Origin: an uncultured Chloroflexota bacterium | GTDB lineage: Bacteria; Chloroflexota; Anaerolineae; Aggregatilineales; Phototrophicaceae | Length of the DNA stretch: 32,435 bases | Reading direction: 5' to 3' | NCBI GenBank assembly: GCA_937870805.1 | Contig: CALMZT010000806.1 | Location: 1-32,435, forward strand | Translations under genes and position numbers: made by a program | Part shown: one piece after another, positions 9,429-31,731 of the stretch | How the letters are laid out: every line of letters starts with the position of its first letter | Numbering within the stretch: position 1 is the stretch's first letter | Notes under the pieces: model-generated | The model's input: only the letters and a program-made list of their open reading frames with translations | Told to the model about the DNA's origin: nothing | The model's database searches: none

Positions 9429-10070
9429 ATGGCTGAAGCAAAAACCGTTGCACCTAAAAGAAGAAAAGGCACCCGTCGGGGCAAGCAGCTAACACCAGCC
9501 GAAAAGGCAGAAGCTATCGCGCTCTGGCGTAACGGATCAACCACGCTCGATGAGCTCGCAGCCCGCTTTGATCGTGACAGAACGACTTTCATACGTCTGT
9601 TCAACGCTGCGGGCGTAACCAAGGGCGAGGCGAGCGCAGAACTAGCGCGCAAGGTCACAGAAGCGGTCGATAGTAGCGCGGTGAACGACGCGGGCGTTTT
9701 AGCTGAACGGATTCGCGAAACCAAAGAAGACCATTACAAGATGATCCGGAGCATGTCAAAACTGACATGGTCCACACTTGCTGCCGCAAAGACCGAAAAG
9801 CGCCCCCTTGCAACCACCATCAACGACTTGAAGGCGATTCAAACCGCCGCACAGATTTTTAAAATCTCGCGGGAGGAGTGCTTTGCTCTATTGGGGCTGA
9901 ACGACAAGGATCGGGAAGATGATACGCCTATGCCCGACTTGGTTCTCCGCGAGCTGACGGCTGACCAGGTTAAGGAAATGACGAATGCTCGCGTCGAGGA
10001 GGACGATCTGGGCATTGCGGCTGGCGCGCCAGAGATGGAGGATTACGACGATGGGAGTCTGCCGCAGTGA
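9429..10070 (+). CDS. terS: Terminase small subunit
   Basis: A 213-aa protein starting MAEAKTVAPKRRKGTRRGK (ATG 9429, just after the terminator). Residues about 20-65 form a basic helix-turn-helix (TPAEKAEAIALWRNGSTTLDE..., then AARFDRDRTTFIRLFNAAGV), as in small terminases and transposase-like DNA-binding domains. A helical middle probably drives oligomerisation. The acidic carboxyl tail (EEDDLGIAAGAPEMEDYDDG) is typical of the segment that contacts the large subunit. Position directly before the large terminase, with a GTGA stop-start overlap, supports recognition of the packaging site. The basis is mainly position and architecture. Confidence 0.8.
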   Translation: MAEAKTVAPKRRKGTRRGKQLTPAEKAEAIALWRNGSTTLDELAARFDRDRTTFIRLFNAAGVTKGEASAELARKVTEAVDSSAVNDAGVLAERIRETKEDHYKMIRSMSKLTWSTLAAAKTEKRPLATTINDLKAIQTAAQIFKISREECFALLGLNDKDREDDTPMPDLVLRELTADQVKEMTNARVEEDDLGIAAGAPEMEDYDDGSLPQ

Positions 10071-12370
10071 GTCGGCATTCGCCATCGGTAATTTACCTTC
10101 ATCCGAAGCAGATGGAGGTTTACCGTACCGAGTCCAGGTTCAAGGTTGTCGTGGCGGGTCGCCGGTGGGGGAAAGCGCTGGCTCTTGATACGCCTATACC
10201 AACTCCGCTTGGTTGGACCACGATGGGCGACCTAAAACAAGGCGACTTGGTGTTCGATGAAGCTGGCAAACCATGCAAGGTTGTCTACGCGCACGACGTA
10301 ATGTACGACCGTCCGTGTTACGAAGTTGAGTTTTCGGATGGCGAAAAGGTTATCGCGGACGGCGAGCACCTGTGGTCAACGTGGACTCACGCTGCTAGGA
10401 AAAACTCGCGGCGTAATCCCAAAGCGGGTTACGGCCCCTCCGTTTGCACTACCGAAGAGATTGCAAAAACGCTGACGATAGGAGTGCGCGAAGATTCGAA
10501 TCACAGCATTCAGTGCGCTCTGCCGGTAGAGTATTCAGAGGCAAATCTTCCAATCGACCCGTACATCTTCGGAATGTGGCTTGGGGATGGCGACAGTCGA
10601 TGCGCCGCGATAACGTGTGGCAGTGACGATCTTGAGCACGTATTGAATCAGGTCGAAATGGCGCTTGGCGCTAGACCGTCGTCACTGACGCAGGATGGGC
10701 GGTCGAAAGCGTGGCGCGTTTCTCTCACCACGGGTCGCGGGTGCGAAAGTGGAATTCAAAAGCATCTTCGCGACTTGGACGCATTGGGCAACAAGCACAT
10801 ACCGCGCAACTATTTGGAGTCTTCTGTTGAGCAGCGCATCGCACTTTTGCAGGGACTGATGGACTCAGACGGAACTTGCAACGGCCATGCGGGGAACTGT
10901 GAATTCACATCTACCAGCGCAGCGTTAGCATCAGGCACGCTCGAACTTGCTTTGTCACTCGGCATTAAGGCGACAATGACAGAGGGTCGCGCAACGCTGT
11001 ATAGCACGGATTGCGGTGCGAAGTATCGAGTGAAATTCTCGACTGATTTGCCAATCTTCAGAATGGAGCGAAAGCTTGCGAGGCTTCCTAAAACCAGAAG
11101 GTTTCGTATCGATCACAGATTCATAAAGGCAGTGCGCCTCGTAGCGTCCGTGCCTGTTCGCTGCATTACCGTGGACAGTCCGAACAGCTTATATCTCTGC
11201 ACTCGCTCGTTCATTCCAACGCATAACACCCAGCTAGCTAAAACCGCGATGCTGAAGTATGCCCGCGTGCGCAATCGCCTGATCTGGTATGTCGCGCCCA
11301 GCTACCGCATGGCAAAACAGATTATGTGGCCGGAGTTGATTGCTTCGATTCCGAAGCGGTGGATTCAGAAAATCAACGAAACGACCTTGTCGATCAAGCT
11401 GGTCAACGGAACGCGTCTCGAACTGAAGGGCGCCGACAATCCCGACTCGCTGCGCGGGGTGGGTATCCACTTTCTGGTAATGGACGAAGTGCAGGATATC
11501 GACCGGGAAGCCTGGTCCAAGGTGCTGCGTCCGACGCTAGCGTCAACGGGCGGTCATGCGCTGTTTATCGGTACGCCTAAAGCCTACAACTTTCTGTATG
11601 AGCTTTATGCGCTGGGGCAGATTGAGAAAAACCAAATCGCAAAACAGTGGCGAAGCTGGCAATTCCCGACCATGACCTCGCCCTTCATTCCGCTTGAGGA
11701 AATTGAAGCCGCGCGCGACGACATGGATGAGAAGTCGTTCAATCAGGAGTTCAATGCGAGCTTCGAAACGATGAGCGGACGGGTGTATCACTCCTTCGAC
11801 CGCAAGCTGCATCTCAAGAAGTGCGAGTTCAATCCCGCCTTGCCGATTTGGATTGGGCAAGACTTCAACATTGATCCAATGTCGTCGGTCATCATGCAGC
11901 CACAGGAAGACGGCACGGTCTGGGCGATAGACGAAATTGTGCTGTTTGGCTCCAATACGGAAGAGGCGTGCGACGAAATCGAACGCAAGTATTGGCGTCA
12001 CAAAGACAATATCGTTTTGTTTCCGGACCCTGCGAGCCAATATCGACAGCACGCACGCGGAGAGTCCGACCTGGATATTTTCAGAGAGCGTGGCATCAAG
12101 AAGCAGAAGTTCCATCGCAAGCACCCCGCAGTTGCCGACAGGGTAAACGCGGTGAACCGCATGTTGAAGTCGGCAAAGGGCGCCATTCGATTTTACGTCG
12201 ATCCTAAGTGCAAGCACTTGATTCAATCGCTCGAGCAGACGATTTACAAAAAGGGCGGACGCGACATCGACAAGGACGCAGACATTGAGCATAGCGGTGA
12301 CGCGCTTGGATACTGCATTGAGTTCATGTTCCCGGTTCGCAACGTCGAGATTATTGGCGTATCAATTTGA
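10067..12370 (+). CDS. terL: Terminase large subunit precursor with embedded intein
   Basis: A 767-aa precursor; removing the 351-aa intein leaves 416 aa, the usual size for TerL. The GTG start overlaps the small terminase stop and has GGAG nine bases upstream. The ATPase: Walker A GRRWGK at 31-36 continues as T388 after the intein, giving GRRWGKT; Walker B is FLVMDE at 469-474; the coupling motif is FIGTP. The RNase H-like nuclease domain shows the expected acidic residues in WIGQDFN, LFPDPAS and HSGDALGY. Role: ATP-driven packaging and cutting of concatemeric DNA at the portal. Unspliced protein has a split P-loop and should be inactive, so packaging depends on splicing. Transcription passes on towards portal. 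Confidence 0.93.
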   Translation: MSRHSPSVIYLHPKQMEVYRTESRFKVVVAGRRWGKALALDTPIPTPLGWTTMGDLKQGDLVFDEAGKPCKVVYAHDVMYDRPCYEVEFSDGEKVIADGEHLWSTWTHAARKNSRRNPKAGYGPSVCTTEEIAKTLTIGVREDSNHSIQCALPVEYSEANLPIDPYIFGMWLGDGDSRCAAITCGSDDLEHVLNQVEMALGARPSSLTQDGRSKAWRVSLTTGRGCESGIQKHLRDLDALGNKHIPRNYLESSVEQRIALLQGLMDSDGTCNGHAGNCEFTSTSAALASGTLELALSLGIKATMTEGRATLYSTDCGAKYRVKFSTDLPIFRMERKLARLPKTRRFRIDHRFIKAVRLVASVPVRCITVDSPNSLYLCTRSFIPTHNTQLAKTAMLKYARVRNRLIWYVAPSYRMAKQIMWPELIASIPKRWIQKINETTLSIKLVNGTRLELKGADNPDSLRGVGIHFLVMDEVQDIDREAWSKVLRPTLASTGGHALFIGTPKAYNFLYELYALGQIEKNQIAKQWRSWQFPTMTSPFIPLEEIEAARDDMDEKSFNQEFNASFETMSGRVYHSFDRKLHLKKCEFNPALPIWIGQDFNIDPMSSVIMQPQEDGTVWAIDEIVLFGSNTEEACDEIERKYWRHKDNIVLFPDPASQYRQHARGESDLDIFRERGIKKQKFHRKHPAVADRVNAVNRMLKSAKGAIRFYVDPKCKHLIQSLEQTIYKKGGRDIDKDADIEHSGDALGYCIEFMFPVRNVEIIGVSI
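10175..11227 (+). mobile_element. Class-3-type intein with LAGLIDADG homing endonuclease in terL
   Basis: A 351-residue intein (precursor residues 37-387) inserted between Lys and Thr of the Walker A GKT. Residue 1 is Ala (ALALDTPIPTPLGW), not Cys or Ser. The class 3 WCT set is present: Trp in block B (ADGEHLW, intein residue 67), Cys in block F (RCITVDS, residue 330), and Thr at the +1 position after the terminal His-Asn. The endonuclease has both helix motifs with acidic residues, FGMWLGDGD (132-140) and LLQGLMDSDG (224-233), so it looks intact and able to home. Class 3 inteins use the block F Cys as first nucleophile. It is in frame, with no stop codon. Confidence 0.9.
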
Positions 12371-25133: not shown

Positions 25134-25825
25134 GCATAGCCGAAGAGATTCAATCGTTATCGCCGTCGGCGATTATCGAGCTGTTCGTGCTTGATCTAAC
25201 CGGATTGCCCGGTGGCGGCGGGTTAATGCATTTTCATGCAGGGACCAATGCGCTGAACCTTCCGATATATTGGCAGGGCGTTGAGTACACGCCTTTGCCA
25301 ATTGAGGCAGAGGGTTTCGATATGTCCACTCAAGGTACGCTACCAAGACCTAAGATCAGAGTGGCAAACGTTGATGGATTGTTATCAGCAGCTGTCGCCG
25401 AAAGCGATGACCTTATCGGTGCCACCGTTACGCGCAAGAGGACATTCGCGAAGTATCTGGACGCGATCAACTTCCCAGGCGGTGTAAACCCTGACGCCAA
25501 TCCAGCCCAGCAATTTCAGGATGACGAATGGTATGTCGATCAGAAGATAGGAGAGACGCGCTATGTTATCGAGTGGGAGCTTGCGTCCGCAACTGACTTA
25601 CAGGGTGTGACGCTGCCATCCAGGCAAGTAATTCAGAATACCTGCTGGTGGGCGTATCGCAGCCCCGAATGTGGCTATACAGGTACGCCATTTGACGCAA
25701 ATGACGCACCTTGCGCCACAGCGCAGGATTCTTGCGCCAAGCGATTTAACTCATGTCGAGTGAGGCACCCTGCCGGGGTGCCGGTGCCCTTCGGCGGATA
25801 TCCGGGATCGACAAGAAGTGGTTAA
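25130..25825 (+). CDS. Minor tail protein L-like, iron-sulfur cluster candidate
   Basis: 231 aa. The amino-terminal domain is beta-rich, with LPIYWQGVEYTPLPIEAEGF and TQGTLPRPKIRVAN, hallmarks of gpL. The carboxyl domain has Cys172, Cys181, Cys202 and Cys209 (plus Cys195), closely matching the four cysteines that hold a [4Fe-4S] cluster in lambda gpL. Iron-sulfur binding is inferred from that spacing. It overlaps the M gene (ATGA) and the K gene by a few bases. It forms part of the tail tip hub. Confidence 0.88.
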   Translation: MSIAEEIQSLSPSAIIELFVLDLTGLPGGGGLMHFHAGTNALNLPIYWQGVEYTPLPIEAEGFDMSTQGTLPRPKIRVANVDGLLSAAVAESDDLIGATVTRKRTFAKYLDAINFPGGVNPDANPAQQFQDDEWYVDQKIGETRYVIEWELASATDLQGVTLPSRQVIQNTCWWAYRSPECGYTGTPFDANDAPCATAQDSCAKRFNSCRVRHPAGVPVPFGGYPGSTRSG

Positions 25826-26564
25826 TCGCGAAGAGCTGATCGCCGCGATGAAGACTGCGGGCGCCTCCAGATACCCCAACGAAGCTTGCGGGCTGATTGT
25901 TGCAGCTGGCAAAAAGTCGGTTGTCATCGAGTGCGAAAACATTTCTCCGACCCCTCGCGACAGGTTCATGATCGGCACTGCCGACTATTCGAAGGCGTCA
26001 GATATGGGTGAAATCATCGGCGTATGGCATACCCATACCGATGAGCCCCCAACGCCGTCCGATGGCGACAAGGTGGACTGCGAGAAGTCTGAAGTGCCTT
26101 GGTTCATTCTTGGGGTTTCGAAAGACGAATCGGGCGAATTTCAATACAGCGAACCCGTGATGTTCGAACCGTCGGGCTTCGAAATGCCCTATCTGGGCCG
26201 TCCGTATGTCATGGGAGTGCTCGACTGCTACACACTGCTACTGGACTTCTACAAGCGCGAATACGGGATTCACATAAACGACTACCCGCGCATCGAAGCT
26301 GACGGACGACTGGGATCGAGCCTTTTCGTTGATCGCTACGAACAGGAGGGCTTTGTCAGACTGATTGATAAAGATGTGCAGATCGGCGACGTGTTTCTGA
26401 TTCAGGTTCCAACCGAGAACACTCCGGCACACATTGCCATTTACATAGGCGACGACCAGATTATGCACCACTGTCACGGAAGACTTTCAAAGCGCGACAT
26501 TTATGGTGGCGGATACTGGCAAAAACATACTACATATCATTTGAGGCATAAGACAAAATGCTAA
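25818..26564 (+). CDS. Tail tip K-like protein: JAMM plus NlpC/P60 peptidase
   Basis: 248 aa with two domains. The JAB/MPN domain (about 1-110) has Glu22 and HTHTDEPPTPSDGD (His71, His73, Ser81, Asp84), a complete JAMM zinc site. The NlpC/P60 domain (about 125-245) has DCYTLLLDFY with Cys137 and PAHIAIYIG with His205, a cysteine peptidase suited to cutting peptidoglycan during infection. This pairing is the lambda gpK architecture. The start is GTG 25818, overlapping the L-like stop; the ribosome site is weak, so coupling is likely. It ends overlapping the I-like gene. Confidence 0.92.
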   Translation: MVNREELIAAMKTAGASRYPNEACGLIVAAGKKSVVIECENISPTPRDRFMIGTADYSKASDMGEIIGVWHTHTDEPPTPSDGDKVDCEKSEVPWFILGVSKDESGEFQYSEPVMFEPSGFEMPYLGRPYVMGVLDCYTLLLDFYKREYGIHINDYPRIEADGRLGSSLFVDRYEQEGFVRLIDKDVQIGDVFLIQVPTENTPAHIAIYIGDDQIMHHCHGRLSKRDIYGGGYWQKHTTYHLRHKTKC

Positions 26565-27133
26565 CTAAAGTCATTTTGGAAGGCCCGATGGGCAAGGCGT
26601 GCGGGCGCACCTGGGCGTTTGATATCTCTTCTCCATCCGAAGCATTGCGTATGGTTGACGCTAATAGACCAGGCGTCTTCAACTGGATAAGAAATAACCT
26701 TAAAAAATACGAAGCCTACCGAGTAGTGTGCAGGTACGAAGATGGCAAAACCGAAGAGTTGGACCAAGGCTCTTACACGTTAATGAATAAGCCGGTTGAG
26801 ATTCGCTTTGTGCCGATTGTTCAGGGCTCAGGCAATGCGGGGCGAATTATTCTGGGGGCAGTTCTGGTAATTGCTGGCGTGTGGTTCCAACAGCCATGGT
26901 TGATTCAAATGGGGGCAGGGTTGATAGTTGGTGGCGTGATTGGGCTTTTAACCCCTCAGCCAAAATTGAATAGTAGCGATGAGAAAGAGTCCAAAAATAA
27001 AACCTCGCACTTTTTTGATGGCCCTGTAAACACCACCGAGCAGGGTGTGCCGGTGCAGCTTATTTACGGCGAAACAGTTCTGGTGGGCTCGCACGCAATC
27101 TCGGCAGAAGTCAGCATCGATCAGCTAATGTAG
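26558..27133 (+). CDS. Tail assembly protein I-like
   Basis: 191 aa. The first 85 residues have the ubiquitin-like beta-grasp pattern of lambda gpI (VILEGPMGKACGRTWAFDIS, PSEALRMVDANRPGVFNWIR). Two hydrophobic segments follow (AGRIILGAVLVIAGVWF and MGAGLIVGGVIGLLTPQPK), then a tail (EQGVPVQLIYGETVLVGSHA, ending SAEVSI), as in gpI. It is needed for tail tip assembly with K and J. ATG 26558 overlaps the K-like gene's end. Confidence 0.88.
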   Translation: MLTKVILEGPMGKACGRTWAFDISSPSEALRMVDANRPGVFNWIRNNLKKYEAYRVVCRYEDGKTEELDQGSYTLMNKPVEIRFVPIVQGSGNAGRIILGAVLVIAGVWFQQPWLIQMGAGLIVGGVIGLLTPQPKLNSSDEKESKNKTSHFFDGPVNTTEQGVPVQLIYGETVLVGSHAISAEVSIDQLM

Positions 27134-27141
27134 GTGTATAA

Positions 27142-27163
27142 TAAGTCATGAGTGACGTAACAG
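27142..27163 (+). promoter_or_regulatory. Repeated element overlapping the J start codon
   Basis: TAAGTCATGAGTGA at 27142-27155 contains the ATG of the J gene (27148-27150). The sequence just upstream, TGTATAAT (27136-27143), is a good extended -10-like box. Here the element cannot be a promoter for the gene starting at this ATG unless a later start is used. Confidence 0.6.
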
Positions 27164-30100
27164 TTAAGCCAGACAGTGCGATTGCGGGCGCAGGTGGGGG
27201 AGGCTGCTTTCGTGCGGGCGCACAGATTCAACTACAAGGCGGCAAAACTGTTGCCATTGAGTCGCTGAAAGAAGGCGATGAGGTACTTGCGTTTGATGAG
27301 CAGGGCGAAATTCATCTGGCGAAAGTCACCAAGGTTCACTACCATGCCGACCCGCAACCGATTCTGAAGGTCAAGTTCTGGCGCGGCGAAACCTATATCA
27401 CGCCTAACCACTGGGTACTAAACCAGTACGGCTCGTTTGTCGAAATGGGAAGTCTGACCGACCACGACGCGCTGGTGGACGGCATGGGGCACCTTCGACC
27501 AATTATCGGCGCTGAATTAATCGGACATGAGCCCGTATGGAATCTCACTGTTGAGCCGCACCATACGTTTATCTGTGATGGCGTGCGAGTACATAACGGT
27601 GGGCATCGTGAGCGTCACCCGGTAATCGCGGGCGCAGGTGGCGGAGGCAAACCCAAAGGTGGCGGGGGCAGGGCAGCGGTTGAAGCCGATGACAGCCTTC
27701 AGTCTCGCGCAATGGTTTCGCTGCTGGACTTACTGGGCGAGGGCGAAATCGGAGGATTGGTAGCGGACGCTCAGACGATCTTTCTGGGCGACGTGCCCCT
27801 ACAAAACGCTGACGGAACCTATAACTTTAATGGCGTATCGTGGGACTACAGAAACGGCACTCAAGATCAGTTGCCCATTAATGGTTTCGCCGATGTTGAG
27901 ACGCCCTACGTTGTAGGCACGCGGGTCAAGACAGATTTATCCAAAACTGTTTCGATCACAAACCCGAACGTCGATAGCGTTCGGGTGATAGTCACGCTGC
28001 CCGCGCTGAGCAGTCAAAATCCTGAGAACGGAGATATCAACGGCTCCTCTGTTCAATACAAATTTCAGGTATCCAAAGACGGAGGCCCGTTTACAGACGT
28101 AAATGCTGGGTATACAGCGACCCCGGTTGCCGCGACCGTTACGCCGGAAGGAACCTCTACCTCTAGCACCGCTGTTTCCGTAACAACGACGGACGTAGGT
28201 AATGTGGGTATGGAGATGACGGTCAAGCTCGCATCAACTACAGCGCCTGTCAGAACGCCAGTTTCGATAGTTCTACAGCCGCAAACGTATGTGGGCGCAG
28301 CGTGGGTAGATTATGGCCGTCAAATCGCGATCAATAGGAGCGCCACTTCTGGAAGCGGAAGTGCGGTAGGTTTTATTAAAATAGTTACAGATGCGGTAAT
28401 TAGCCAGCTTGGGGCAGGCACATACTATTCGATAGAAGGACACAGTAAAGTCAGGTTTCGCGTCATTAGCGCAACCCATCCATCTACGCTGACGATTGAA
28501 AATGTCAAAAAGCTCGATGGTGCCCCAATCGTCACCGTAACGGGCAAGGCGCGGTCAAGGTATCAGCGGCACCATCTCATCAAAATGCCAAAGCCGGGGT
28601 CCACCTGGCAGCTGCGCATGATACGAATCAGTCCAGATTCGACCAGTGCGGCGACTGCAAATGAAACCTACTTCGATAGCTACGTAGAGATTGTCGATGC
28701 GATGCTCTCATACCCTAACTCGGCGCTGGTTGGGTTAAGAATCGACTCTGCGCAGTTCAATCAAATTCCGAGTCGGTCTTATCTGGTGAAGGGGCTCTAT
28801 ATCAGAACGCCCTCGAACTACGATCCGATCACCAGAACCTACACCGGCACTTGGGATGGCACGTTTGTTTATCGAGTGTCCAGTAACCCCGCGTGGATTT
28901 TGTATGACCTGCTGCTGCACAAGCGGTATGGCTTGGGCCGGTTCATTCGCGAGGATCAGGTAGATAAAGGAAAGCTATACCAGATAGGTCGCTATTGTGA
29001 CGAGCAGGTGCCTGATGGCTTTGGCGGAATGGAGCCCAGATTCGCTATCAATACCGCGATTCAAACGCTCAGTGAGGCATACAGACTAATCTCCGAGATA
29101 TCTTCGGCGTTTCGCGGAATGATGTACTGGGGCGGCAGCATGGCCGCATTCACCCAGGACAGCCCCGCCGATTCCAGTATGGAATTTAGTCAAGCGAACG
29201 TTGTAGATGGCTTGTTTCACTACACAGGCTCTTCGAGAAAAGACAGGCACTCTGTTGTGCTGGTGGGATGGAATGACCCAGAAGAAAGATTCAAGCGCAA
29301 GCTTGAATATGTCGAAGACCCTGAGCTGATAAAGCGCTACGGGATTCGAAAGCTCGAAACCGTTGCATTCGGCTGCACCAGTCGTGGGCAAGCTGCGCGG
29401 GTTGGCCGATGGATTTTGTATACCGAACGCGACGAGTCTAACCTGATTAGCTTCAAGGTCGGTATTGACTCCGCACTTGTGCTCCCCGGCGAAATCATCA
29501 AAATTCACGATCAGTTCAAATCCGGCAAGCGCATGGCAGGACGGCTAGTTTCAGTTACCCTGACATCCGCGACGCTTGATGCGCCTTTGAAGATCGCAGC
29601 TGCTGGCGCAACGATATCGATTCGCGCAGCCGATGGAACCTTCTACGAAAGGTCGCTAATACAGTCGGCTGGCGAGTATACGGCGGTAAGCTGGACATCG
29701 CCGTTGCCCGCACTACCCGTACCAAATGCGATATGGATGGTGACGGAACCCAGTCTCAACCCGGTTCTCGCGCGTGTGGTCAAGGTTGCTCAGGATGGTA
29801 TGTCAAAGAGCACCTTTGCCATTTCCGCCATTGAGCACAACCCGGCTAAGTATGCGGCAATCGAGAACGGGCTTGTGTTGGAGCGCCCAAAGACGAGCAT
29901 TGTAAGTGCGCGTCCCGGTGTAGTTACGGACCTGATCGCATTAACGGAGATGGTAGAGCTGAACCCAGGCATCTTTGGTGCCCAAATCGCCGTGAGCTGG
30001 GCTGCGCCGTCGCTTGCGACCAATTACAAAATATTCTGGCGGCTTGGCAGCGAGAACTGGAAAGAGGCGACTTCCGATATACCGTCATACGACATCAAGA

Positions 30101-31731
30101 ATGTCCCAGTTGGTACATATACAATCAAGGTTGCCGCCACAAACGCGCTGGGGCTACTGGGTGATGCGCTTACTATAACCCATACCGTAGCGACCTCGGG
30201 CGTGTCTCCTGATGTCGCAAACCTGCGTGCAAACCCAGACTTCTTAGGTAAAGACCTTCAGGTTGCGTGGGACGCCCTCTCTGGCGCTCAAAGCTATATC
30301 GTTCAGGTTAAAACCACTGCCGACGTTCTTCTGAGAGAAGAGACGGTTATCACTACAGGTTACAGCTATAGCTACGCGAAGAATCTGAATGATGGCGGTC
30401 CGCGTCGTGATGTAAAAATTCTGGTAAAGGCAAAAACGGTCGTGGGTCAGTCCGCAAACTGGACGACCATGACGTTTAGCAATCCCGCACCCGGCGCTCC
30501 AACGGGAGTGACGCTTGAGGCGGGGCCTGGGCAGGTCGGCATTTCTGCGATTCGCCCCGCAGATCAGGACCTCGCTGGGATGATCGTCTGGATGAGCTCT
30601 GACCCGACCGTGCCGATGAATTCGGGAACGGAAATTTACAAAGGCTCAAACAACGCGTACATGAAGACCGGGTTGCAACCCGGCGTGGCAATGAACTTCA
30701 GGGTGGCGTTTTACGATGAGTTCGGGACCGCAGCGCTGACGCCCTCAACACCGTTTGCAGCGACGCCAACCGCAACGGGTGGGATCGTCATGGTGACGAC
30801 GCTTCCTGCGAACCCCGCAGCTGTCGATGGTCAGACCGCCGTTTTTCTTGACGTGGTGGACGCGAATGTACGCGGGCTTTATGGCTGGGACGGGTCTGCG
30901 TGGAAGTTCACACGAGACGGCGGGTATCTGGTTGCAAACTCAGTAACGGCAGATCGCATGAATGTGACGAATCTGTCTTCGCTAAGTGCAAACCTCGGCA
31001 CCATGACGGCGGGCAACATCACGCTCGACGCGTCGGGGTTTATTCGTGGCGGGTCGACCGGGTATTTAACTGGTACTGGGTTCTGGGTGGGCAACCACTC
31101 CGGGACTTATAAATTACATATTGGTGATCCAACCGGGCAGTACTTGGCATGGACGGGCTCCGGGCTCACGATCAATGCGGGTGGAACGTTTAGCGGGGCA
31201 CTGTCAGCAGCGTCGGGTACGTTTGCAGGAAGTTTGAGCGCAGCTACAGGTAGTTTTTCCGGAACGCTTAGCGCAGCGACCGGGACGTTTTCAGGCACGC
31301 TCACGGCCTCCGCGATCAACGCGGTGAATACGATCAATATCGCGGGCAATGCGGTGACGATTCCTGTGTTCGCATATGCAGCCGGCCCTACGATGTTCTA
31401 CTGGGCTGGCGGCGCATATGTGCCAATGGTATCGGCGGCAATCGATAGTGCAGGCGGGATGATTGTTATCCAGGGAGGATTTAGCGGCCCTGGGTCCTAT
31501 AGTGATTCCGGGGCTAGCAATATTGTCGTCGTGCAGAGAGACGGGGTCGTTATTTACTCCGTTGGCGGCTATTCGGCAGGGCCTGTTCATTTTATATATT
31601 CAGATACGCCTGGCGCTGGCGCACACACATATACGCTAGGAATAAGCGCAAATATCGTAAATAACGGAAGCGGAGTGCCTGGTCCAGTTTACGAAAAGAT
31701 GTCTTTATTTTTACTGGAAGCTAAACGATGA
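27148..31731 (+). CDS. Tail tip / host specificity protein J with amino-terminal Hint domain
   Basis: 1527 aa. Residues 20-150 are a Hint domain described separately. The lambda J-like core runs from about 180 (DDSLQSRAMVSLLDLLGEGE) to about 920, with landmarks LYIRTPSNYDPITRTYTGTW, VPDGFGGMEPRFAINT and RKLETVAFGCTSRGQAARVG. Fibronectin-III-like beta modules follow: about 925-1020 and two more up to about 1205. Residues 1346-1389 are four copies of an 11-residue repeat (GTFSGTLSAAT type) before a beta-rich tip (1390-1527) that probably binds the host receptor. The ATG sits inside a control element, with AGGTG eleven bases upstream. The gene overlaps its downstream neighbour by ATGA. Confidence 0.92.
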   Translation: MSDVTVKPDSAIAGAGGGGCFRAGAQIQLQGGKTVAIESLKEGDEVLAFDEQGEIHLAKVTKVHYHADPQPILKVKFWRGETYITPNHWVLNQYGSFVEMGSLTDHDALVDGMGHLRPIIGAELIGHEPVWNLTVEPHHTFICDGVRVHNGGHRERHPVIAGAGGGGKPKGGGGRAAVEADDSLQSRAMVSLLDLLGEGEIGGLVADAQTIFLGDVPLQNADGTYNFNGVSWDYRNGTQDQLPINGFADVETPYVVGTRVKTDLSKTVSITNPNVDSVRVIVTLPALSSQNPENGDINGSSVQYKFQVSKDGGPFTDVNAGYTATPVAATVTPEGTSTSSTAVSVTTTDVGNVGMEMTVKLASTTAPVRTPVSIVLQPQTYVGAAWVDYGRQIAINRSATSGSGSAVGFIKIVTDAVISQLGAGTYYSIEGHSKVRFRVISATHPSTLTIENVKKLDGAPIVTVTGKARSRYQRHHLIKMPKPGSTWQLRMIRISPDSTSAATANETYFDSYVEIVDAMLSYPNSALVGLRIDSAQFNQIPSRSYLVKGLYIRTPSNYDPITRTYTGTWDGTFVYRVSSNPAWILYDLLLHKRYGLGRFIREDQVDKGKLYQIGRYCDEQVPDGFGGMEPRFAINTAIQTLSEAYRLISEISSAFRGMMYWGGSMAAFTQDSPADSSMEFSQANVVDGLFHYTGSSRKDRHSVVLVGWNDPEERFKRKLEYVEDPELIKRYGIRKLETVAFGCTSRGQAARVGRWILYTERDESNLISFKVGIDSALVLPGEIIKIHDQFKSGKRMAGRLVSVTLTSATLDAPLKIAAAGATISIRAADGTFYERSLIQSAGEYTAVSWTSPLPALPVPNAIWMVTEPSLNPVLARVVKVAQDGMSKSTFAISAIEHNPAKYAAIENGLVLERPKTSIVSARPGVVTDLIALTEMVELNPGIFGAQIAVSWAAPSLATNYKIFWRLGSENWKEATSDIPSYDIKNVPVGTYTIKVAATNALGLLGDALTITHTVATSGVSPDVANLRANPDFLGKDLQVAWDALSGAQSYIVQVKTTADVLLREETVITTGYSYSYAKNLNDGGPRRDVKILVKAKTVVGQSANWTTMTFSNPAPGAPTGVTLEAGPGQVGISAIRPADQDLAGMIVWMSSDPTVPMNSGTEIYKGSNNAYMKTGLQPGVAMNFRVAFYDEFGTAALTPSTPFAATPTATGGIVMVTTLPANPAAVDGQTAVFLDVVDANVRGLYGWDGSAWKFTRDGGYLVANSVTADRMNVTNLSSLSANLGTMTAGNITLDASGFIRGGSTGYLTGTGFWVGNHSGTYKLHIGDPTGQYLAWTGSGLTINAGGTFSGALSAASGTFAGSLSAATGSFSGTLSAATGTFSGTLTASAINAVNTINIAGNAVTIPVFAYAAGPTMFYWAGGAYVPMVSAAIDSAGGMIVIQGGFSGPGSYSDSGASNIVVVQRDGVVIYSVGGYSAGPVHFIYSDTPGAGAHTYTLGISANIVNNGSGVPGPVYEKMSLFLLEAKR
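27181..27648 (+). repeat. 24-bp direct repeats flanking the Hint coding segment
   Basis: 27181-27204 and 27625-27648 match at 22 of 24 bases, and each encodes Ile-Ala-Gly-Ala-Gly-Gly-Gly-Gly. They are 444 bp apart, exactly 148 codons, so the segment between them is in frame with and without the insert. They flank the Hint domain at its first Cys and a few residues beyond its last Asn. Confidence 0.85.
27205..27597 (+). other. Hint domain (BIL-like mini-intein) in J, 131 residues
   Basis: Hint features in order: Cys at position 1 (CFRAGAQIQLQGGK), the block A loop with LKEGDEVLAFDE, block B TPNH (TxxH) at Hint residues 66-69, and block F VWNLTVEPHHTFICDG leading to His-Asn at the end. There is no endonuclease. 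The residue after the final Asn is Gly rather than Cys, Ser or Thr, so normal splicing is unlikely. Bacterial intein-like type A domains of this kind can cleave or splice in other ways. The flanks on both sides are the same Gly-rich peptide. Confidence 0.88.
31183..31314 (+). repeat. Four 33-bp tandem repeats near the J carboxyl end
   Basis: These encode four degenerate copies of an 11-residue unit, Gly-Thr-Phe-Ser-Gly-Thr-Leu-Ser-Ala-Ala-Thr. Such Ala/Ser/Gly repeats form beta-helical or collagen-like stalks in receptor-binding proteins and can change in number by slippage or recombination. Confidence 0.75.

Follow-up and report, generated by a model that had tools for sequence, protein, structure and literature searches.

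An A-type BIL-like Hint domain, probably self-removing, behind the native glycine motif of the lambda-type tail-tip protein J

Introduction

BUBL proteins carry a BIL domain behind a ubiquitin-like domain that ends in Gly-Gly. What BIL domains do biologically is unclear; they have been reported in bacterial proteins that lack conservation, within hypervariable regions (PMC7765530). Those of the A type are marked by the absence of a nucleophile at the +1 position; a proposed reaction has them ligate through the amino group that is set free, and cleavage products dominate (PMC4031507). Among phage tail proteins, protein I was described as having a ubiquitin-like domain followed by a Gly-rich linker and belongs to an I/K/J neighbourhood in which the JAB domain of K is predicted to cut at this linker; fusions of I to J were noted in the same study (Iyer et al., PMC1779556).

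Here we describe a Hint domain that is located near the N-terminus of J, the lambda-type tail-tip protein, in a window of 32,435 nucleotides from an uncultured Chloroflexota bacterium (contig CALMZT010000806.1) and in environmental phage sequences. With this family, BIL domains become available in many natural versions of a single structural protein that is well understood. The open-access literature searched contained no mention of a Hint domain in J.

Results

The J gene of the window was recognized by matches to phrog_31 ("central tail fiber J", E=1.6e-261), NF049904 (lambda_TipJ) and the Pfam families FNIII-A_GpJ and Phage-tail_3. Homologues of L, K (JAB plus NlpC/P60) and I lie immediately 5' of it. 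The features discussed below are as follows.

25818..26564, + strand: listed part 5' of the I homologue
26558..27133, + strand: homologue of tail assembly protein I, Ub-like fold presumed
27148..31731, + strand: J, lambda-type tail-tip / host-specificity protein, 1527 aa, carrying the Hint domain (profile matches)
27148..27204, + strand: N-extein, J residues 1-19 (MSDVTVKPDSAIAGAGGGG), abutting Cys20; the -1 residue is Gly in 153/157 J-Hint proteins
27181..27204, + strand: first copy of the Gly motif, IAGAGGGG, 24 nt, direct repeat
27205..27597, + strand: Hint domain (A-type BIL-like), residues 20-150, 131 aa (alignment, AlphaFold, Foldseek)
27205-27207, + strand: Cys20, catalytic signature
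27400-27411, + strand: Thr85-x-x-His88 (T85-P-N-H88), catalytic signature
27562-27564, + strand: His139, catalytic signature
27592-27597, + strand: His149-Asn150, catalytic signature
27598..27624, + strand: C-flank GGHRERHPV, from Asn150 to the second motif copy; +1 Gly not a nucleophile, +2 Gly invariant
27625..27648, + strand: second copy of IAGAGGGG, direct repeat, counterpart of the lone motif in Hint-less J
27649..31728, + strand: J proper, behind the second motif (profile matches)

The Hint domain opens with Cys-Phe, closes with Val-His-Asn followed by Gly-Gly, and holds no endonuclease insertion. When the N-terminal part of J was scanned alone, the Pfam gathering scores of both Hint (32.7 vs 29.7) and PT-HINT (29.4 vs 27.7) were passed; in a scan of the whole protein the two matches fall slightly under the cut-off. 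Searches of PDB sequences, whether with the single sequence or with a profile, led to the C. thermocellum BIL 2lwy (profile E=9.8e-20). The AlphaFold model built with 64 relatives has a pLDDT of about 96-98 across the domain, and Foldseek ranked BIL2 of Tetrahymena BUBL1 (6y75, E=7e-11) at the top together with 2lwy (rmsd 1.5, TMt 0.87). By profile, PDB sequence and fold searches alike, the domain groups with the A-type BILs, in agreement with a preliminary description of this DNA that had called it a BIL-like Hint domain in J and whose range (27181-27648), domain length, 24-bp repeat (22/24) and 148-codon spacing all proved exact.

Residues C20, F21, H66, T85, N87, H88, W89, V135, V148, H149, N150 and G152 are invariant in a 64-member alignment (A4) and H139 is at least 90% conserved, although some search patterns contained TPNHW, the conservation of which is thus partly built in. 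Searches with the J core of L066 or L088 as the query were free of this bias at the search step; a later detection step also required T-x-N-H-W/Y. His66 (64/64 in A4), which belongs to a KVHxH motif outside the classical catalytic blocks, is a possible metal site or assisting residue.

Searches of IMG/VR followed by the parsing of 410 J ORFs yielded at least 157 distinct J-Hint domains in environmental phage sequences, all near the N-terminus and typically about 9-25 residues after a Met. Cys1 is present in 157/157 and the terminal His-Asn in 156/157, and the -1 residue is Gly in the 153 proteins mentioned above. The +1 residue is Ala in 98, Lys in 29, Gly in 27, Thr in 2 and Ser in 1 of them, such that Ala, Lys or Gly occupies this position in 154/157 domains and Thr or Ser in 3/157, bearing out beyond Gly151 of the window the earlier remark that a +1 nucleophile is missing. 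The autoprocessing proposed at that time is also supported, and we regard it as probable.

When about 50,700 cultured-phage records were searched by tblastn with four queries, no J-Hint emerged; J homologues are found in 1443 of these records, and the Hint queries matched Hint domains of other proteins, helicases and terminases among them. In bacterial genomes, an alignment-based contig scan found J-Hints only in two MAG contigs (L089, L090) and the window, and a Hint in a non-J protein in L091. Other genomes of the order and class yielded Hint proteins, none of them J. The window's own assembly encodes another Hint protein, pretoxin-like and not J, on contig C1344 (L430). We note that the large terminase subunit encoded in the window (10067-12370, + strand) harbours another intein-like insertion, unrelated to the Hint of J and some 350 residues long, at Walker A (GRRWGK/ALALDT...FIPTHN/TQLAK; here and below, slashes outside brackets mark domain borders) with a LAGLIDADG domain (Pfam PF14528, PF05204). 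Judged by eye, its Ala start and a Cys in the block-F region give it the look of a class 3 intein.

The Gly motif that flanks the Hint domain also occurs without it. The Hint-less proteins L092-L097, whose J is 61% identical to that of the window, start with one copy (MKEEEKQIV-IAGAGGGG-KGGGG), and other Hint-less J proteins have a single motif as well, in the form of LLIAGAGGKK (SSU5), IEGAGGGG (Silvergun) or LITGHGGGGKGGGG (L338). Since Hint-less homologues begin with one copy, one copy of the motif is native to the N-terminus of J and older than the Hint. Homologues lacking the domain and keeping one copy of the repeat, for which the preliminary description had suggested a search, are thus at hand.

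The Hint is inserted directly behind the native motif (GGGG/Cys) in two architectures. Among relatives outside what we refer to as the clean clade, the motif precedes the Hint in 125/128 and a second copy follows it in 121/128, as HN/GGHRERHPV-IAGAGGGG in the window and HN/AGLGxx-IAGAGGGG in the other clade; GGHR stands behind the Hint in 17 distinct relatives and not in Hint-less J. In the clean clade (L066, L124, L150 and their relatives), a sister clade of the window's, the Hint has the same location and a second copy is missing (...VPxIxG(A/S/G)KGG/C-Hint-HN/KGGGKGGG...), and PxIxG is found before the Hint in 25/25 Hint-bearing proteins, after it in 0/25, and in 8/9 Hint-less J proteins. 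The Hint-less sisters L132, L134, L135, L142 and L180 (...VPxIxGAKGG-KGGGG...) equal the product predicted for splicing in this clade, whereas the splice product of the window would hold two copies of the motif.

A sequence similar to the N-terminal motif of J, VPIVQGSG, is present in the I homologue (residues 85-92; 26810-26833, + strand). The pattern [IVLT]Px[IVLY]xG[ASGH] occurs in 73/108 ORFs 5' of J compared with 3.5% of shuffled sequences, and is located in protein I about 105-145 residues before the C-terminus. The native N-terminus of J resembles the Gly tail behind the presumed Ub-like domain of I. The sharing of a (V/I)PxIxG(A/S)G motif by I and J suggests a processing or binding site in common, or an old I-J fusion.

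The two copies of the repeat in the window lie in frame, 444 bp (148 codons) apart, and are identical at 22/24 nucleotides (92%). Given identical IAGAGGGG peptides and phage codon usage, an identity of at least 22/24 has P = 0.014, and in relatives with the same peptide pair the copies agree at only about 1-5 of 5-7 codons; for these two reasons we do not take the repeat to be a scar of recent origin. It is the peptide rather than the DNA repeat that is conserved, the repeat being beyond chance at the peptide level and weakly so at the DNA level. The near-identical DNA copies that an insertion would leave are not conserved as DNA in relatives, and empty alleles hold one motif copy. The interpretation of the repeat as an insertion scar or recombination device is thus not supported, one copy being native and the synonymous sites of the two being randomized in relatives. 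Within a phage the two motif copies resemble each other more closely than across phages (0.78 vs 0.66 by permutation in the window clade, p=0.0005). Gene conversion of the copies was considered and is not claimed here, the residue match being significant and the codon match small and maybe compositional.

Near-identical phages occur with and without the Hint, indicating that J is functional in its absence. L303, without Hint, and L287, with it, share 97.4% identity across 1.5 kb of J and 99.1% across 214 nt of upstream sequence; L313 and L307, likewise differing in the Hint, are 97.6% identical over 1.5 kb of J, and three further such pairs are 93.7-95.7% identical. None of the five closest Hint-free alleles is obviously derived by collapse of the two copies present in its Hint-bearing partner, contrary to the precise loss by repeat recombination envisaged earlier. 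Rather, the motif of Hint-free alleles seems to be a haplotype of its own, from which it would follow that alleles are swapped through flanking homology; later divergence of the motif is also possible. On a J-core tree (116 rows, quick method) the Hint label changes at least 16 times, compared with 33 when shuffled, and at least 4 of the changes are forced by starred branches.

Between the window and L003, the Hint is 89% identical at the amino acid level and 34% at fourfold sites, and the J core 52% and 28%, respectively. Recent horizontal spread of the Hint was rejected as the cause of the difference between 89% and 52% since fourfold sites in Hint and core alike are close to saturation, and Hint-bearing alleles are old for the same reason. 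Conservation of the Hint exceeds that of the J core in 170/171 pairs of the window clade, 565/703 pairs of the AGLG clade and 8/120 pairs of the clean clade. Among unselected sequences of the L286-like group, pN/pS is 0.21 in the Hint, 0.12 in C-flank codons +1 to +6 and 0.39 in the N-extein. Clean-clade Hints are only about 30-37% alike and retain the active site. The clean-clade Hint is intein-like in tempo and that of the window clade is strongly constrained. As the latter is far more conserved than the core despite near-saturated synonymous sites, it is probably an actively maintained, domesticated autoprocessing domain. The J-Hint of L235 is 79% identical to the L009/L247 group with a J core only about 36% identical, and fourfold sites approach saturation in Hint and core alike, possibly denoting an old mosaic J.

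Discussion

We consider it likely that an A-type BIL-like, mini-intein-like autoprocessing domain removes itself from J behind the native Gly motif. From what was computed, namely domain identity, a conserved active site, a native single-copy state, presence/absence alleles and purifying selection, we infer catalysis, an order of steps, ligation and a role in tail assembly. Cys20 would form a thioester with Gly19; Asn150, aided by His149, would cyclize and release the C-terminal part; and the freed amino group of Gly151 would attack the thioester, joining the two parts with loss of the Hint, as proposed for A-type BILs. The earlier statement that ordinary splicing is not expected holds as regards the missing +1 nucleophile, but ligation is still possible, since A-type BILs are able to splice without this residue (PMC4031507), and the clean clade points the same way. 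In that clade, ligation is the best reading and the likely outcome because the splice product would restore the exact native N-terminus and match Hint-less J; the conservation of both the N-extein and the active site in such divergent Hints also argues for splicing. Uncleaved retention would keep the N-extein of the clean clade, yet it leaves the active site unexplained. In the window, splicing would give a tandem motif, and C-terminal cleavage alone a J protein starting with GGHRERHPV-IAGAGGGG. Since the second motif lies 9 residues behind Asn150, either product would have a usable N-terminus, and both fit an N-extein less constrained than the Hint and the C-flank. The Hint could also stay uncleaved in the virion.

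That C-terminal cleavage is all that happens, Asn150 cyclizing and residues 1-150 being discarded, is possible, if somewhat unlikely; the second motif would, on the same reading, have been selected for restoring a native-like N-terminus. The 9 residues before the second copy equal the number before the motif in Hint-less L092 (MKEEEKQIV) and L096, constraint in the L286-like group is strongest at the C-flank codons, and type A BILs give mostly cleavage products (PMC4031507). Such a reaction, however, needs neither the invariant Cys1 (157/157) nor TxxH, both of which are kept, as is the upstream motif (125/128), and the clean clade, without a second copy, would lose its conserved N-terminus. 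Alternatively, the domain may be a selfish mini-intein of no present function to the phage, kept only because it splices and spread by homologous recombination between phages, a reading that is likewise possible, if somewhat unlikely, and that finds support in the presence/absence alleles of near-identical phages, the patchy distribution on the J tree and the pace of the clean-clade Hint, which evolves faster than the J core. Against it stand the lack of an endonuclease and a conservation of the window-clade Hint above that of J that seems more than splicing alone needs.

That the Hint was inserted recently with a target-site-like duplication and is lost when the 24-bp repeats recombine is very unlikely despite the 22/24 identity and the within-locus matching of residues above permutation, for P is only 0.014 with the peptides being identical, the codons of the two copies differ in relatives, Hint-bearing alleles are old and Hint-free alleles have a motif haplotype of their own. 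No more credible is a catalytically idle structural domain shown on the tail tip; Hint folds are stable, but active-site residues are kept down to about 30% identity in the clean clade.

A speculative and on balance improbable extension is that in the window's clade a domesticated BIL serves as a timed switch of tail-tip assembly, the J thioester being resolved only upon formation of the I-K-J complex. The Gly motif of J and the tail following the presumed Ub-like domain of I, beside the JAB/NlpC peptidase K, would then be of one kind; the Hint would turn the motif into a thioester, to be ligated either to another amine or to the new N-terminus of J itself, as in ubiquitin-BIL systems. Environmental J proteins may differ at the N-terminus from what the gene suggests. 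Near-isogenic presence/absence alleles, together with two architectures (clean and duplicated motif) that predict different products, make natural A-type BIL ligation and regulatory processing directly testable.

Among known systems, A-type BILs (C. thermocellum BIL, 2LWY) share with the J-Hint the fold, the size (about 130-150 aa without endonuclease; 131 aa here, with 6y75 and 2lwy as best folds), Cys1 and the block B TxxH (Cys20 and T85-P-N-H88, TPNHW being in some search patterns), and the C-terminal His-Asn with no Cys, Ser or Thr at +1 (His-Asn, then Gly). Unlike them, the J-Hint occupies one fixed place in a conserved phage structural protein, behind a conserved Gly-rich N-extein and with presence/absence alleles, although hypervariable parts of non-conserved bacterial proteins are where BILs were found rather than what they do. 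BIL2 of Tetrahymena BUBL1 (6Y75, 6TMM) is the top fold match; J, unlike BUBL1, does not itself carry a ubiquitin-like domain and has just a Gly-tail motif similar to that of I. Mini-inteins and phage inteins (gp41-1, DnaB, RecA) resemble the J-Hint in fold, predicted excision and the scarless insertion seen in the clean clade, but the +1 residue of J-Hints is Ala, Lys or Gly instead of the Cys, Ser or Thr of class 1 inteins (Gly151 in the window), and the site is not in an enzyme active site. The PT-HINT domains of polymorphic toxins are related by profile, as the Pfam PT-HINT model matches 64/64 members of A4. In the bacterial Hint proteins recovered here, the domain is mostly internal or far downstream in the ORF, with other sequence after His-Asn, whereas the J-Hint is N-terminal and followed by J.
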